A stretch of 64,000 nucleotides of DNA, taken from assembly GCF_010093385.1 (NCBI RefSeq), contig NZ_PDWV01000007.1, positions 1-64,000 of the forward strand, in the 5' to 3' direction. Made by a program: the position numbers and the translations under genes. Positions 25,435-31,681 of this stretch are shown piece after piece; the first letter of the stretch is position 1; each line of letters starts with the position of its first letter. The notes beneath the pieces were generated by a model. It saw only the letters and a list, made by a program, of their open reading frames with translations, was not told where the DNA came from and ran no database searches. This DNA comes from Pseudoxanthomonas mexicana (GTDB lineage Bacteria; Pseudomonadota; Gammaproteobacteria; Xanthomonadales; Xanthomonadaceae).

Positions 25435-26106
25435 TCAGGGCTTGGCGGGCTCGGCAGCGGCGGCGTCGGCTTCCGCCGCCGCATTCGTTGCACCGCTGTT
25501 GTCGCCCTTGACCGCGCGACCGATCGCACGGCCGATGTCCTTGCCGGCTTCATGGTTTTCGTTGTGGCTGGTGCGGCAGTCTTCCGCATCGCCTTCGTCC
25601 ATCGACGCGTAGGGCTGGAAGGCCGGTAGCGCGGCAGCGAGGTCCTGCTGTGCCTTGTAAAGCCCCGGCAGACGGTCGCAGATCTTCATCGCTTCAGCCT
25701 CCACCTTCTTGGCCTCGGCTTCGATCTGCTTGTCGATCTGGTCCGGATTGCCGCTGAAGATGCCCTTCACCGCAGCGCCCACCGCCTTGCCGGCGAGCTT
25801 GGCGCCTTCCTTGCCGGTGGCGATGCCCGCATCGGCGATGCCGCCCAGCTCGCGGTGATAGGCGACCAACAGTGTCCGCTGCGTATCGCTCACTTCCACC
25901 TTCTTGCCGCCGACGATGAAGTCGCCCTTTGCCGAAATTTCAGCCTGTGGATGACCGGTCGCGTTGAGGGTGAGGTTCTGGCCCCACAGCGCACGCGAGA
26001 CGGCGACGCCGTCCCCTTCCCCGGACTCGGGTGCCTTGTCCTTGCCCGAGCAGGCGGACAGCAGCACGAGGGACAGCGCGAGAGCGAGCGGTGCGAATCG
26101 GGTCAT
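25435..26106 (-). CDS. DUF2884 (YggN-like) lipoprotein, paralogue 1
   Basis: A 223-residue lipoprotein with lipobox LLSAC (Cys19). The core aligns with the other two DUF2884 proteins of this locus: AEISAKGDFIVGGKKVEV, an LVAYHRELGGIADAGI segment, and the C-terminal block LPAFQPYASMDEGDAEDC. A unique tail (residues about 175-223) is Ala-rich and low-complexity. AGGAA precedes the ATG at 26104-26106. Function is unknown; the family is periplasmic. It is the last gene of the GntR-ABC transcription unit. Confidence 0.82.
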   Translation of the reverse strand: MTRFAPLALALSLVLLSACSGKDKAPESGEGDGVAVSRALWGQNLTLNATGHPQAEISAKGDFIVGGKKVEVSDTQRTLLVAYHRELGGIADAGIATGKEGAKLAGKAVGAAVKGIFSGNPDQIDKQIEAEAKKVEAEAMKICDRLPGLYKAQQDLAAALPAFQPYASMDEGDAEDCRTSHNENHEAGKDIGRAIGRAVKGDNSGATNAAAEADAAAAEPAKP

Positions 26107-26122
26107 GGTCTTTCCTGGAATT

Positions 26123-26959
26123 TCAGTGATGTTTCGGGATATCGATGGTGCCGGTGACGCCTTCGTGGTCGACATCGCCGCTGCCGAGCGAGCGGACGGG
26201 CAGTGCGCCAGCGACATTGCGCACTTCCACGCCGCCGGATCCGACCGAGCCGACCACCACATCGCCGGTGATGTCGCGCAGCTCGGCGCCGCCGGAACCG
26301 ATCGAGTCTATCTCGGCACCGCCACCGCGCGACAGGCTGAAGCTGCCCGAGCCGATGCTGCCGACGCGGGTACGACCGTGCACGCTGTCGGCCTCCACGT
26401 CGCCCGAACCGATCGAGACGACCTTGAGGCTGCCGGCGACATGGATGTCGATGTCGCCCGAGCCCACCGAAACGGCGGCCAGCCCGCGGATGTCGCGGCC
26501 CACGGCGTGGCCCGATCCCACGTCGGCGCTGAACACGGGGGCGCCCATGACCCTGGCCTCACCTGACCCGACTTTCACCTGCACGGGCAGATGGTCCGGC
26601 AGGGTCGCCGTCAGGTTCATGTAGGCGTAGTTGCTGCCGAAGGAGATGCCGCTGAAGCTGCCCTCCTGGTACAGGCGCACGATCAGTTTGTCGCCAGCGC
26701 GGCGCTGTTCGATCTTCAGCCGCGCCAATCGGTCGGCATGGCTGCTGCAGGCGCGGCCGCTCATCGCGGCGGGGGCCCCTGCGCGCGATTCCACTGTCAA
26801 GTCGTGGGGCCCGACCTCGAATACCACGGCCTTGGCATCGCCGGTGTCCAGCACGAGCTGGCGGGGAGATTCGTGCTTGCAGTACCGGTCGGAGGCCGAC
26901 GCGGGCGCCGACAGCGCCAGCGCGGGGAGCAGGGGAGAAGCGATCAGGACGGTGCGCAT
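26123..26959 (-). CDS. DUF4097-type beta-helix protein with eight GSG repeats
   Basis: A 278-residue secreted protein with signal peptide ending near residue 22 (APASAS). Four Cys-containing N-terminal stretches precede a regular repeat. A Gly-Ser-Gly, preceded by Val/Ile/Leu, recurs at residues 131, 148, 166, 184, 203, 221, 240 and 259, a 17-19 residue spacing typical of a right-handed beta-solenoid (DUF4097/DUF2807 type). It probably acts as a periplasmic or surface scaffold. It lies between DUF2884 genes on the same strand, 16 nt upstream of the start of paralogue 1. Confidence 0.82.
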   Translation of the reverse strand: MRTVLIASPLLPALALSAPASASDRYCKHESPRQLVLDTGDAKAVVFEVGPHDLTVESRAGAPAAMSGRACSSHADRLARLKIEQRRAGDKLIVRLYQEGSFSGISFGSNYAYMNLTATLPDHLPVQVKVGSGEARVMGAPVFSADVGSGHAVGRDIRGLAAVSVGSGDIDIHVAGSLKVVSIGSGDVEADSVHGRTRVGSIGSGSFSLSRGGGAEIDSIGSGGAELRDITGDVVVGSVGSGGVEVRNVAGALPVRSLGSGDVDHEGVTGTIDIPKHH

Positions 26960-27016
26960 TCTGAGTCTCCGGGAGTGATCGTGTCGGATGGGGCCGCGAC
27001 TGCCGGCGAACGCGCG

Positions 27017-27688
27017 CTATCGGCTCGCGAACTCGCGGCGCATCTCGTTCTCGCAGTCCTCGACATCGTCCGCCTCCAGCGTGGCGTAAGGACGGAACGC
27101 GGGAAGCGTGGCGGACAGGCGTTGCTGGCGGTCCCGCAGCGCCGGCAGACTCAGGCAGATCTGCCGCACGCCGGGTTCGACGGTCTCGCGGACGGTCTTC
27201 TCGATGCGCCGCTCCAGGCTGCCGGTCATCGCGCCGAACATCAGACTGAAGAGGCCGCGGTCCACCGCATCCAGTGCCGCCTGGGCACTGCGTTCGCCGA
27301 TGTCGATGCCGGCCTTGGCGATGGCGATGACCTCGCCACGGTAGAGCAGCAGTTCCTGGCGCTGGTGGCGGTCGATGGCGACCGGCTTGCCTTCGATGAG
27401 GAAATCACCCTGCGGGGTGATCTCTGCGCGGGGCAACGCGCGATCCGCATGGGAGGCGCGCGCATCCGACTTGCCGAAGCGAAGACTGTCGCCCAGTTGC
27501 AGGTTGCCCGTGTCGAGTTCGCGACGGGCAGCGGCGAGCTCGGTACGGACTTCACTGCGAGCATCGGCGAGGTCGGCGCTGACCTCGTTGATGCGGGTAT
27601 CCCCGGCGTTCGCCGTCTGTACCGCGAGCGGAAGAAGGCTGGCCAGGAACATCGTCATCAGCATGCGTGGTTTACGCGTGGAGTGCAT
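27017..27688 (-). CDS. DUF2884 (YggN-like) secreted protein, paralogue 2
   Basis: A 223-residue protein with a signal peptide cleaved near TANAG (residue 29); it lacks a lipobox, unlike its two paralogues. Residues about 35-70 are a charged coiled-coil-like helix (DLADARSEVRTELAAARREL). The conserved core follows: LPRAEITPQGDFLIEGKPVA, LLYRGEVIAIAKAGI, and LPAFRPYATLEADDVEDC. It probably resides free in the periplasm. It is transcribed with the ABC genes; function is unknown. Confidence 0.82.
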   Translation of the reverse strand: MHSTRKPRMLMTMFLASLLPLAVQTANAGDTRINEVSADLADARSEVRTELAAARRELDTGNLQLGDSLRFGKSDARASHADRALPRAEITPQGDFLIEGKPVAIDRHQRQELLLYRGEVIAIAKAGIDIGERSAQAALDAVDRGLFSLMFGAMTGSLERRIEKTVRETVEPGVRQICLSLPALRDRQQRLSATLPAFRPYATLEADDVEDCENEMRREFASR

Positions 27689-27765
27689 GGCGTGTCCTCT
27701 TCGTCGTCTGGATCGATGTCGGGGGCGTTGATACGCGGGCTAACGCGCGGGTTGGGTTGGGAACC

Positions 27766-28428
27766 TCAGAAGGTCCAGTTGCCGTCGCCATTGGCGTCGC
27801 CGCAGTCGTCCACATCGGCCTGGTCCATCGTGGCGTAGGGCGCGAACTCGGGCAGGGCGGCGGAAAGCGCCTGCTGTGCCGACAACAGGCCGGGCAGGCG
27901 CGTGCACAGCTGCGCGACCATGGGCTGGATCTTGGTCTTGGCCTGTTCGCCGACCTGCTTGCCGATCTGGTCGCCGTCCTGGCCCGCCAGGACTCCTTTC
28001 AGCGCGGAGGCGGCTGCGTCGATGCCGACGCGCGCTCCCTCCATCCCGATCGCCATGCCATCGCCAACCACGCCAAGCAGTTCGCCGCGGTAGGCCAGCA
28101 CCAGCGCCTTCTGTTCCGGGGTGGTCGCGACCGCCTTGCCTTCGATCAGCAGGTCACCGGCTGGCGTGATCTCGGCCTTGGGCAGGTGCTGTTTCTCGTT
28201 GCGGTTGAGCGAAATGTTCTCGCGGGCCAGCCGGTCGCGTGCGGTGGCGATCTCCTCGCGGGCCTTGTCCATTTCCTGGCTGGCCTCGCCCAGTCCCGTG
28301 GCTGCTTCGTCCATCGCCTTGGCCACCACGCCCGTGGGGGCCTGGTTCTTGTCGGTCGGCTGGCACGCCGCCAGGGCGATCATGCCGAGCACGATGAGGG
28401 GGCGCATCCGTGAAAGAGAGGTGTGCAT
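27766..28428 (-). CDS. DUF2884 (YggN-like) lipoprotein, paralogue 3
   Basis: A 220-residue lipoprotein with lipobox IALAAC (Cys22). An N-terminal helix (AMDEAATGLGEASQEMDKAR) is followed by the shared core LPKAEITPAGDLLIEGKAVA, LAYRGELLGVVGDGM and LPEFAPYATMDQADVDDC. The tail DANGDGNW looks like a short Ca-binding-type loop, but that is speculative. AGGAA is placed well for the ATG at 28428. It follows the ABC permease gene after a 58-nt gap containing a perfect G/C hairpin. Confidence 0.82.
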   Translation of the reverse strand: MHTSLSRMRPLIVLGMIALAACQPTDKNQAPTGVVAKAMDEAATGLGEASQEMDKAREEIATARDRLARENISLNRNEKQHLPKAEITPAGDLLIEGKAVATTPEQKALVLAYRGELLGVVGDGMAIGMEGARVGIDAAASALKGVLAGQDGDQIGKQVGEQAKTKIQPMVAQLCTRLPGLLSAQQALSAALPEFAPYATMDQADVDDCGDANGDGNWTF

Positions 28429-28486: not shown

Positions 28487-29485
28487 TTATTCGCTTTCGC
28501 GCCAGCGACGCAGATGGATCGCGCCGACGATCAGGGCCACGCCGATGGCGGCGCCGATCCACAGATCCGCGGTGGCGAAAGCGTGCCAGCTGCGGGTCAG
28601 GTCGATGGCGTTGGCCAGTTCGTCCGGCGTGTTGATCTCGGTGTGCGGGTTGGCGGCGCCGCCTTCCAGCGTCGGGAACCACGCGCCCGGCACCACGCTC
28701 AGCAGACCGCGGTAGACCACCGTGTACCAGACCAGGTCGTGACGGATATCCAGGCCCGGCAGGATGTCGGTCATGCTGACGATCACGCAGGCCAGCACCG
28801 GCACCAGCACCGCCCACAGGAACGGCTTGCTGCGCGCCCAGGCCGAGCAGAACATCAACCAGCCGACCGCAGGCAGCGACCACATCATGTACACGGGCAG
28901 CGAACTGATCACGCCGCCGATCACACGCAACGGGTGGGAGTGGGTGAACATCGCGCCGCCGGCCGGCAGGCCGTTGACGGTGATGGTCAGCGCCGAGATC
29001 AGCCACATCGCCACGCCGATCAGGATGCCGATACCGATGGCCAGCAGCGGCGCCAGGACCAGCGCCCAGGCCAGCTTGGACAGCACCATGTGGGTGTCGG
29101 AGACCGGCAGCGACTTCCAGAACAGCACGCTGCGGTCGCGGCGGTCGTCGTAGAGGGTGCCCAGGGCGTAGAAGAACACCACGAAGGCCAGTACCACGCA
29201 GGCCAGGATCACACCGCCCAGCAGCATGCCGTCACCGATGCCGCCGACGATCTGGTGCGCCTTCTCCGGTGCATCGTCGATGACGAAACCGCCACCGTCC
29301 ATCGACCGCCGTGCGGCGATGCTGCCGATCACGGCCAGGATCAGGTTCAGTACCAGGAAGATGCCGCCGGTGATCACCGGCGCCCAGAAGAAGCCTCCGC
29401 GGTTCTCCCAGAACTCGCGCTTGATCAGCCATTTGAACGCGCCCGGCTTGGAGGGCTTGCCCAACGTCGAAGTCACGGCGTTCAT
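28487..29485 (-). CDS. ABC-2 type transporter permease
   Basis: A 332-residue inner-membrane protein with about six to seven hydrophobic helices. It has a large loop after the first helix (SIAARRSMDGGGFVIDDAPE) and the ABC-2 element LYDDRRDRSVLFWKSLPVSD, which couples to the ATPase. Its ATG overlaps the stop of the ATPase gene, so the two subunits are made together. By context it exports or removes a substrate from the membrane under control of the GntR regulator; the substrate is unknown. Confidence 0.85.
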   Translation of the reverse strand: MNAVTSTLGKPSKPGAFKWLIKREFWENRGGFFWAPVITGGIFLVLNLILAVIGSIAARRSMDGGGFVIDDAPEKAHQIVGGIGDGMLLGGVILACVVLAFVVFFYALGTLYDDRRDRSVLFWKSLPVSDTHMVLSKLAWALVLAPLLAIGIGILIGVAMWLISALTITVNGLPAGGAMFTHSHPLRVIGGVISSLPVYMMWSLPAVGWLMFCSAWARSKPFLWAVLVPVLACVIVSMTDILPGLDIRHDLVWYTVVYRGLLSVVPGAWFPTLEGGAANPHTEINTPDELANAIDLTRSWHAFATADLWIGAAIGVALIVGAIHLRRWRESE

Positions 29486-30357
29486 GCGTAGGTTCCTTTC
29501 ATGATGGCGACGAACAGGTCGGCCAGGCCAGGGGTACGGGTTTCGCCCAGCGGGGCGAGTTGGGCCTGCGGCACGCCGTCGAACAGCAGGACGGTCTTGC
29601 CGAAGGGCAGGGCGCGCTCGTCGATGGGTTTCAGGGCGCGGGCCTGCTCGACCGCCTCGCCGCTGACGAGCACTTCGGTGTAACGCTCAGCCACTTCGTC
29701 CATCTGCGCGGTCAGCGCGATCCTGCCGTCGCGGATGAACATCACGTCGGTGAGGATGTGTTCGATCTCCTCGACCTGGTGGGTGGTGACGATGATGGTC
29801 TTCTGTTCGTCGAAGTAGTCCTCCAGCAGGCGCTGGTAGAACTGCTTGCGGTACAGGATGTCCAGGCCGAGCGTGGGCTCGTCCAGCACCAGCAGCTTGG
29901 CGTCGATGGCCATCACCAGGGCCAGGTGCAGCTGCACGATCATGCCCTTGGACATCTCGCGCACGCGCAGATTGGGCTTGAGCTGGGTATTGGCCAGGAA
30001 GCGCTCGCACTTGGCGCGGTCGAAGCGCGGGTGCACGCCGTCCACGAAGTCGATGGCTTCCTTGACCTTCATCCAGCGCGGCAGCACGGCCACGTCGGCG
30101 ATGAAGCAGACATCCTTCATCAACTCGTCGCGATCCTTGCGCGGATCCAGGCCCAGTACCTTCAGCTGGCCTTCGAACGGAATCAGGCCCAGGATGGCCT
30201 TCAGCGCGGTGGTCTTGCCCGCGCCGTTGGGACCGATCAGGCCTATGATCTTGCCGGCCTCGATCTGGAAGCTGGTGTCGTTCAGCGCAAGCTTGTTCTT
30301 GTAGGCCTTGCGCAGGCCGTGGGCCGACACCACGGCATTGGCGATTGCGGCGTTCAT
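29482..30357 (-). CDS. ABC transporter ATP-binding protein (YtrB-like)
   Basis: A 291-residue ATPase. Walker A is GPNGAGKTT near residue 45. The ABC signature is divergent, reading REMSKGMIVQL. Walker B is LLVLDEPTLGLD, followed by the switch His in IIVTTHQVEEIE. The C-terminal 80 residues are a regulatory extension common in YtrB-like exporters. AAGGGGAA precedes the ATG, which overlaps the GntR stop codon as TGATG. It energises the adjacent permease. Confidence 0.9.
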   Translation of the reverse strand: MNAAIANAVVSAHGLRKAYKNKLALNDTSFQIEAGKIIGLIGPNGAGKTTALKAILGLIPFEGQLKVLGLDPRKDRDELMKDVCFIADVAVLPRWMKVKEAIDFVDGVHPRFDRAKCERFLANTQLKPNLRVREMSKGMIVQLHLALVMAIDAKLLVLDEPTLGLDILYRKQFYQRLLEDYFDEQKTIIVTTHQVEEIEHILTDVMFIRDGRIALTAQMDEVAERYTEVLVSGEAVEQARALKPIDERALPFGKTVLLFDGVPQAQLAPLGETRTPGLADLFVAIMKGTYA

Positions 30358-30719
30358 CACTTGTTCCCCTTGGATTGCAGCAGATCTTCGATGGACAGGC
30401 CCAGGCGCTCGATGCGCTCGGCGACGGCCGGCCATTCTTCGGTCAGGAACCGCTCGCGCTCGCTGCCGCGCAGCTTCTTGGACGCTTCGTCGGTGACGAA
30501 CATGCCCAGGCCGCGGCGCTTCTCCACCAGGGCCTCGTCGGCCAGTTCCTGGTAGGCGCGCGATACGGTGATCGGATTCAGCTGGTACTCCGCCGCCACC
30601 TGGCGCACGGAGGGCAGGGCGTCACCCGGCTTCAGGATCCCGTCCAGCATCATGGCGATCACGCGATCCTTCAGCTGGCGGTAGATGGGAGCGCCGTCGC
30701 TCCATTGGATGGATGTCAT
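30357..30719 (-). CDS. GntR family transcriptional regulator, YtrA subfamily
   Basis: A 120-residue repressor-type protein. The winged helix (residues 10-75) includes PIYRQLKDRVIAMMLDG, the recognition segment LPSVRQVAAEYQLNPITVSRAYQ in parts, and EKRRGLGMFV. The short C-terminal helix pair is that of the YtrA subfamily, which controls linked ABC transporter genes and responds in other bacteria to cell-wall antibiotics. It overlaps the ABC ATPase gene and probably autoregulates through the dyad at 31010-31033. Confidence 0.9.
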   Translation of the reverse strand: MTSIQWSDGAPIYRQLKDRVIAMMLDGILKPGDALPSVRQVAAEYQLNPITVSRAYQELADEALVEKRRGLGMFVTDEASKKLRGSERERFLTEEWPAVAERIERLGLSIEDLLQSKGNK

Positions 30720-30722
30720 GGC

Positions 30723-30983
30723 TCAGCTCCTCGGACGCAGCGATTGGCCAAAGGAGAAGTAGGGCATGGCCAGCGAGGCCCGGGCCCGACGCTTGTGTTG
30801 CCGTGCCTGCGGGTTGCCGTCATCGCCGGCGACCTCGGCCGCATCGGATTCCAGCGCGCCGACCAGCGCGGTGGAATCCACGTCGGCCGTGCGTGCACCG
30901 GTGACGGTCGCCAGCACGCCGATCGCCAGCAGCAGGCCGCCGACGGCCAGGCTGGGCAGTGTGTGGGTCAGTTTCTGGTTCAT
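30723..30983 (-). CDS. Small membrane-anchored protein heading the GntR-ABC operon
   Basis: An 86-residue protein with one N-terminal hydrophobic helix (SLAVGGLLLAIGVLATVTGA), followed by an acidic stretch and a basic C-terminus (RQHKRRARASLAMPYFSFGQ). AGGGG precedes the ATG. The GntR start lies 3 nt after its stop. It is the first gene after the promoter, so it is tightly co-regulated. No family is recognised; it could be a secreted peptide or a signalling/sensor element. Confidence 0.7.
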   Translation of the reverse strand: MNQKLTHTLPSLAVGGLLLAIGVLATVTGARTADVDSTALVGALESDAAEVAGDDGNPQARQHKRRARASLAMPYFSFGQSLRPRS

Positions 30984-31009
30984 GGCATCCCCCCCTGAGT
31001 TGGGTGAGT

Positions 31010-31033
31010 GGTGTTGTATTCAACTATAACACC
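31010..31033. promoter_or_regulatory. GGTG-N16-CACC operator, probable YtrA-type GntR binding site
   Basis: GGTG at 31010-31013 and CACC at 31030-31033 are separated by exactly 16 nt. The inner arms continue the dyad (GGTGTT on one strand facing AACACC on the other). From memory, this is the motif described for the YtrA regulator of Xanthomonas citri. It covers the -10 box of the promoter reading into the small membrane protein and GntR genes, as expected for autorepression. Confidence 0.75.
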
Positions 31034-31050
31034 AAAACACAGGCCGTCAA
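31023..31050 (-). promoter_or_regulatory. Sigma-70 promoter of the GntR-ABC-DUF2884 operon
   Basis: On the minus strand the -35 box TTGACG (31050-31045) and -10 box TATAGT (31028-31023) are separated by 16 nt. Each matches consensus at five of six positions. Transcription would begin near 31016, about 33 nt before the small membrane protein ATG. The GGTG-N16-CACC dyad overlaps the -10 box. Confidence 0.7.
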
Positions 31051-31117
31051 CAGGGTTGCGGGGTTTTGTCACCCAACTGAAGGCATACTTGTCATGTTCG
31101 TACTAGTGGAGTGGGTC

Positions 31118-31681
31118 ATGACATCCAAGTTGATGAAATCAATAGCTTTTGTTGCGCTTCTGGGCGCCGCGTCAGCGGCCTTGGCGGCGGGTTTGCTGGA
31201 TGTCAGCTATCGGCCGCTGACCGGCAAGACGCCCGTGAACCTGAAGGAACGCTATGCCGGCCAGGTACTGCTGGTGGTCAATACCGCCAGCAAATGCGGT
31301 TACACGCCGCAGTACGAGGGCCTGGAGGCCCTGCACCAGCGGTACACGCCCAAGGGATTCGCCGTGCTCGGCTTTCCCTCCAATGACTTCAGGGGCCAGG
31401 AACCCGGCACCGAAAAGGAGATCCAGGAATTCTGCACGCTGACCTACGGCGTGAAGTTCCCCATGTTCGAGAAGGTCTCCGTGGTCGGCGAAAACGCCAC
31501 GCCGCTGTACAAGGCAATGACGCAGGCGACCGGCACGGCGCCGGGATGGAATTTCCACAAGTACCTGATTTCGCGCGACGGGCGCGTGGTCGCCCAGTTC
31601 CCCAGCAAGACCAAGCCGGACGATCCGGCGCTGGTGGCCGCGATCGAGCGCGAGCTTGCGGCTCCGCGTGCAGTGCGCTGA
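31118..31681 (+). CDS. Periplasmic glutathione peroxidase family protein
   Basis: A 187-residue thiol peroxidase with signal peptide ending near ALAAG. The active site is complete in Cys form: C60 in [19 protein letters not shown]94 in FRGQEPG and W144 in [10 protein letters not shown]. The usual second conserved Cys of the GFPCNQF motif is Ser here (GFPSNDF), while C106 in [14 protein letters not shown] is retained and could resolve. It reduces lipid or organic peroxides, probably with thioredoxin-like donors. The start at 31118 was chosen for GGAG 8 nt upstream and for the signal peptide. Confidence 0.88.

Follow-up and report, generated by a model that had tools for sequence, protein, structure and literature searches.

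The 24-bp sequence at positions 31010-31033 of the DNA analysed here, a 64,000-nucleotide stretch of Pseudoxanthomonas mexicana (the window), is in all probability the operator of the GntR-type regulator encoded at 30357-30719, whose bound dimer would repress the whole operon until a signal releases it. We put the probability of this reading at about 0.85. Sequence, conservation, gene order and the number of sites were read directly, and from them we infer binding, repression and the signal. A motif noticed by eye thus becomes a well-bounded predicted operator with a testable prediction that covers this operon and two others, and the prediction extends to bacteria other than the plant pathogens from which YtrA is known. 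This kind of operator and regulator switch is already known from Xanthomonas citri. The new part may be a conserved small protein which is encoded directly behind the operator and is found across the bacterial family.

Read directly from the window, the letters of 31010-31033 are GGTGTTGTATTCAACTATAACACC. The initial annotation had described a GGTG and a CACC exactly 16 nt apart over the -10 region of a leftward promoter, TTGACG-N16-TATAGT, and its coordinates and spacings of both site and promoter agree with the letters. The fuller symmetry is a 24-bp dyad, GGTGTT-N12-AACACC. On the minus strand, the -35 hexamer TTGACG (31050-31045) is followed after 16 nt by the -10 hexamer TATAGT (31028-31023), which has TG before it and lies within the left arm of the dyad. 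In a consensus scan of 30700-31200 this pair was the sole sigma-70-like site, with 10 of 12 matches and the TG before the -10, and shuffled sequences gave a mean of 0.1 sites. In the comparison of 80 orthologous loci described below, TTGAC is kept in 75 and TATAGT in all 80. From the -10, a minus-strand transcription start is predicted at 31015-31017; a start near 31016, as initially proposed, fits this invariant -10.

With the predicted start at 31016, the site spans about -17 to +7, and its left arm takes in the extended -10. A GntR dimer on the GGTGTT...AACACC dyad would cover this same region and should exclude RNA polymerase from the operon promoter. Repression would extend to the small first gene, gntR, the ABC ATPase, the permease and probably the genes behind, and release of the dimer by a signal would induce the operon. 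The most plausible role of the complete 24-mer, GGTGTTATAGTTnnATACAACACC, is that of an operator for the YtrA-subfamily GntR protein encoded in the same operon, which is most likely an autorepressor.

The short motif does not carry this reading by its number. GGTG-N16-CACC is found once in the window, where 1.88 copies are expected. A genome scan had been proposed for further copies; these exist, but at 137 against 198 for the reversed pattern in the 3,965,100 bases scanned they are not enriched. The 4+4 motif was accordingly dropped as evidence of its own, being above chance neither in the window nor in the genome, and the significance of the site comes from its conservation. In all 30 same-genus loci examined, which stem from 30 of the 61 genomes searched for the regulator, GGTG-N16-CACC stands without mismatch 299-326 nt ahead of the gntR match, and the best regulator match in 36 other same-genus genomes is 80-100% identical. 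For a wider comparison, 80 loci were kept from 250 relatives belonging to Pseudoxanthomonas, Xanthomonas, Stenotrophomonas, Luteimonas, Lysobacter and unclassified Lysobacteraceae, a set from which the X. citri and X. campestris loci are absent, and the best 24-mer within 700 nt upstream of gntR was taken per locus. It has at most two mismatches to GGTGTTATAGTTNNATACAACACC in all 80 loci and none in 66, and in 78 loci no mismatch falls in GGTG or CACC. The mean information per column is 1.85 bits inside the site and 0.54 and 0.55 bits in the two 60-nt flanks. The right arm of the dyad is as conserved as the rest of the site, and as it sits downstream of the -10, no promoter element explains its conservation.

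Regarding the regulator, the minus-strand gntR gene (30357-30719) encodes 120 amino acids with a GntR winged helix-turn-helix at residues 13-75 (PF00392, 55.6 bits, cut-off 27). The protein is short and has a small C-terminal part, as have its solved relatives of 113-134 amino acids, 3tqn (E 3e-33) and 2du9/2ek5 of Corynebacterium glutamicum (E 5e-9). Orthologs in Xanthomonas, among the relatives, are 86-90% identical. Compared with the NCBIfam PmtR equivalog it scores 56 bits, which is below the cut-off of 200. For the YtrA subfamily, excerpts of PMC6746942 and PMC4494728 describe as typical a 24-bp site whose half-sites lie far apart and a single operon for an ABC transporter. Here gntR does lie in an ABC-transporter operon, the ABC gene being present in 79 of the 80 loci, and the operator of about 24 bp with distant half-sites is seen as a conserved sequence, as distinct from a bound one.

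The operon continues on the minus strand with the ABC transporter ATPase (29482-30357; PF00005, 77.8 bits), found behind the operator in these same 79 of 80 loci, and a probable ABC-2 permease (28487-29485; PF13346, 20.3 bits, below the cut-off of 25), likewise in 79 of 80. Behind them, and also on the minus strand, stand two DUF2884-like proteins as probable operon members (27766-28428, PF11101, 39.2 bits; 27017-27688, PF11101, 25.4 bits, below the cut-off of 30.6). Two possible members follow: a weakly LiaG-like protein (26123-26959; NCBIfam LiaG, 21.2 bits at a cut-off of 285; relatives in 69 of 80 loci) and another DUF2884-like protein (25435-26106; its longer frame, 25435-26262, scores 56.3 bits with PF11101). 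Relatives of the DUF2884-like and weakly LiaG-like proteins of 25435-28428 occur behind the permease in 69-76 of the 80 loci, in varying order.

The YtrA of Bacillus subtilis is the prototype of the subfamily. It differs from the present case in motif and gene set. According to an excerpt of PMC4730234, its sites in two promoters hold inverted repeats separated by 13 bp, and a title cited there has it respond to cell-wall antibiotics. There is a close likeness to X. citri: the initial annotation had given the motif of its YtrA correctly, as PMC6746942 cites GGTG-N16-CACC for the YtrA-like regulator there. In the window, this motif lies at the promoter of the regulator's own operon. PmtR of Staphylococcus aureus resembles the switch proposed here in being a YtrA-subfamily repressor of its own ABC operon with a site over the transcription start, but it has a different motif, and its inducers are exported PSM peptides (excerpt of PMC5080381). 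In the case of YtrASa of Sulfolobus acidocaldarius, the regulon is small, with the own operon and one more membrane-protein locus, and the site again lies over the transcription start; the core site, however, has 14 bp instead of 24 and the promoter is archaeal (excerpt of PMC6746942).

Several other readings of the site have to be weighed. One is that the regulator binds 31010-31033 but activates, or does both, like HpaR1 of X. campestris at gumB; in PMC7831014 and PMC11173191, as far as excerpted, the regulator is written HpaR1/YtrA. The excerpt of PMC4730234 describes HpaR1 as activating gumB from a bound region of -21 to +10, nearly the position found here, and as aiding the binding of RNA polymerase, so that position alone is no proof of repression. 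The gumB site is also described there as an inverted repeat linked by 1 bp and not by 16; both points count against the operator reading as we word it. On the other side, HpaR1 is said in the abstract to repress its own expression, and the near-consensus -35 and -10 of our promoter need no help from an activator; we regard activation as unlikely. Somewhat different is the idea, compatible with the main reading, that the divergent glutathione peroxidase gene (31118-31681, plus strand; PF00255, 118 bits), which begins 84 nt beyond the operator, is under its control too. The two face away from each other in 78 of the 80 loci, but the gene was found in only 2 (L165, L180) of 30 further loci (L158-L187), 20 of which have gntR in reach, and sites of the YtrA subfamily almost never lie between divergently transcribed operons as far as the excerpt of PMC4494728 goes. 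Such a double role has a small but real chance.

Another YtrA-like protein could also be the one that binds, since a search with the regulator gives five hits in the genome at E <= 0.001. Upstream of the gene for the nearest paralog (41% identity, C28:57291), however, stands another dyad, TGTG...CACA, which was read by eye and whose odd length kept it out of the scripted dyad search, whereas GGTG...CACC travels with this gntR; binding by a paralog is thus very unlikely. As for a promoter that carries a GGTG/CACC pair by accident, the expected 1.88 copies in the window and the missing enrichment in the genome would suit it, but both arms are conserved in every one of the 80 loci, which reduces its probability to almost nothing.

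Across the order, the site and gntR are conserved together, which counts for the operator reading. An exact copy of GGTGTNNTANNNNNNTANNACACC (0 mismatches) was found in 72 of 121 genomes and its reversed control in none of the 121, and 117 of these genomes have a regulator ortholog at E <= 1e-25. In at least 48 genomes the exact site lies 269-698 nt upstream of the gntR ortholog, as counted among 75 sites listed for 62 of the 72 genomes. Counting against it are the 46 of 117 ortholog-bearing genomes without an exact 24-bp match and, among the four genomes without an ortholog, one (G150) with two exact sites; the other three have no site. Either a regulator of more remote similarity or a gap in the assembly may account for the two sites of G150.

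With up to one mismatch, three matches occur in 34 of 38 genomes of the genus and two in the other 4, and the reversed control totals one. Exactly three matches with 0-1 mismatch were also obtained in all 13 named genomes tried, where the reversed control was counted at 2 mismatches and was then similar in number in several. Scans at 2 mismatches were dropped, as sites and reversed control were inseparable in some genomes (6 vs 6 in G157, 5 vs 6 in G158). The matches used have 0-1 mismatch, and the neighbours were inspected for part of them.

In the P. mexicana genome, the three matches stand before the ytrA-type operon (site 1), before genes for an XAC0231-like protein and a methyltransferase (site 2) and before an efflux membrane-fusion gene (site 3). 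Going by the matching sites, the regulator probably represses the operons behind sites 2 and 3 as well. In X. citri, YtrA reportedly regulates three operons directly through GGTG-N16-CACC, one of which is said to contain trmL and XAC0231; the same work, by Zhou et al. of 2017, reportedly notes the motif in Stenotrophomonas, Pseudoxanthomonas and Frateuria too. The three sites of this genome may well correspond to that three-operon regulon. If that list is right, the published regulon was recovered here independently, and the finding is of a known kind.

Site 2 (contig C34, 26238-26261) precedes a protein of 129 amino acids, which matches NCBIfam XAC0231_fam with E 4e-19 and 69 bits, below the cut-off of 140. 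It is followed by a gene of a SpoU-family methyltransferase, for which 'TrmL' is the label given in this analysis. Among 6 loci compared, the own genome included, the methyltransferase follows site 2 in 5, and tblastn locates the XAC0231-like protein in 4, with such a frame read by script in a fifth (L207). Behind the site-2-like motif of the remaining Luteimonas locus (L208), neither the methyltransferase nor an XAC0231-like protein was found. A genome of the same family (G064) has a protein above the XAC0231 cut-off that begins 31 nt from its site 2. Of 61 genomes searched within the order, 8 have a match to XAC0231_fam, 3 of them above the cut-off. We found no mention of TrmL within a YtrA regulon in reviews of tRNA modification, and none of XAC0231 in the literature searched.

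Site 3 (contig C43, 385-408) precedes a HlyD/CusB-type membrane-fusion protein, and the frame after it reads, by eye, like an RND pump. The membrane-fusion gene is present behind site 3 in 5 of 5 loci including the query itself, i.e. in two Pseudoxanthomonas, one Xanthomonas, one Stenotrophomonas and one Luteimonas, with the match split over two frames in the Xanthomonas locus (L211). A second conserved box, CATGACC[TA][TA][TC]GG[CG]GCAT, was seen upstream of site 3 in the same 5 of 5 loci (at 354 in L210, 4674 in L211 and 4499 in L213, and on the minus strand in L212 and L214); it is perhaps the site of another regulator or a part of the promoter.

The first gene of the operon deserves separate description. 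Between the operator and gntR lies a minus-strand open reading frame of 86 amino acids (30723-30983) with a hydrophobic N-terminus and the tail MPYFSF, preceded by a likely ribosome-binding site, AGGGGGG (30990-30996, minus strand), in conserved G-rich columns. No Pfam or NCBIfam family was matched at E <= 0.001. The tail, as [LMV]P[YF]FS[FL], is present in 79 of the 80 loci, the frame being shifted in the other one (L150), and in 76 of these 79 the start lies 22-27 nt after the operator. Over the 79 loci with the tail in frame, its codons vary synonymously, which speaks against the idea that the frame is nothing more than a leader or an RNA element. From its hydrophobic N-terminus, judged by eye, the protein is probably exported. 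It may give a clue to the material that the YtrA-type transporter handles and to the way in which repression is relieved.

Among loci of other families, with gntR located by tblastn, 20 have gntR in reach. Of these, 12 show a tail of similar form, 7 have a closed small frame that lacks it and 1 has no such frame, so the tail is not universal there. In the 12 (L165, L170-L180), the protein behind the ytrA operator carries both an XAC0231-like repeat and a tail of the form MPY[YFD][SA]F, for which these two-module proteins had been picked. A profile built from them matched the site-2 proteins with a best E of 4e-19 and the site-1 proteins of Xanthomonadaceae with a best E of 8e-8, and the best shuffled controls gave 0.07 and 0.14. 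Within Xanthomonadaceae, a direct similarity of both small proteins was unconvincing (a site-2 profile run on the site-1 proteins gave a best E of 0.05), so that their link is visible only through the 12 two-module proteins. By this comparison, the first genes of two or more of the regulated operons appear to encode small proteins that are related to each other or are halves of a single one.

This leads to a speculative proposal, to which we give low odds: the regulon may be built round small, probably exported two-module proteins, the tail protein being a substrate or partner of the transporter that feeds back on the repressor. In Xanthomonadaceae the modules would be divided over two operator-controlled genes, so that the ytrA operon starts with the tail protein and the methyltransferase operon with the repeat protein. 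If this were true, the operon would sense its own product, as with the PSM peptides on PmtR.

As a minor observation, one Xanthomonas phaseoli record, represented by L150 and L211, has frame shifts in the small first gene as well as in the match to the efflux gene, and these are perhaps assembly errors.
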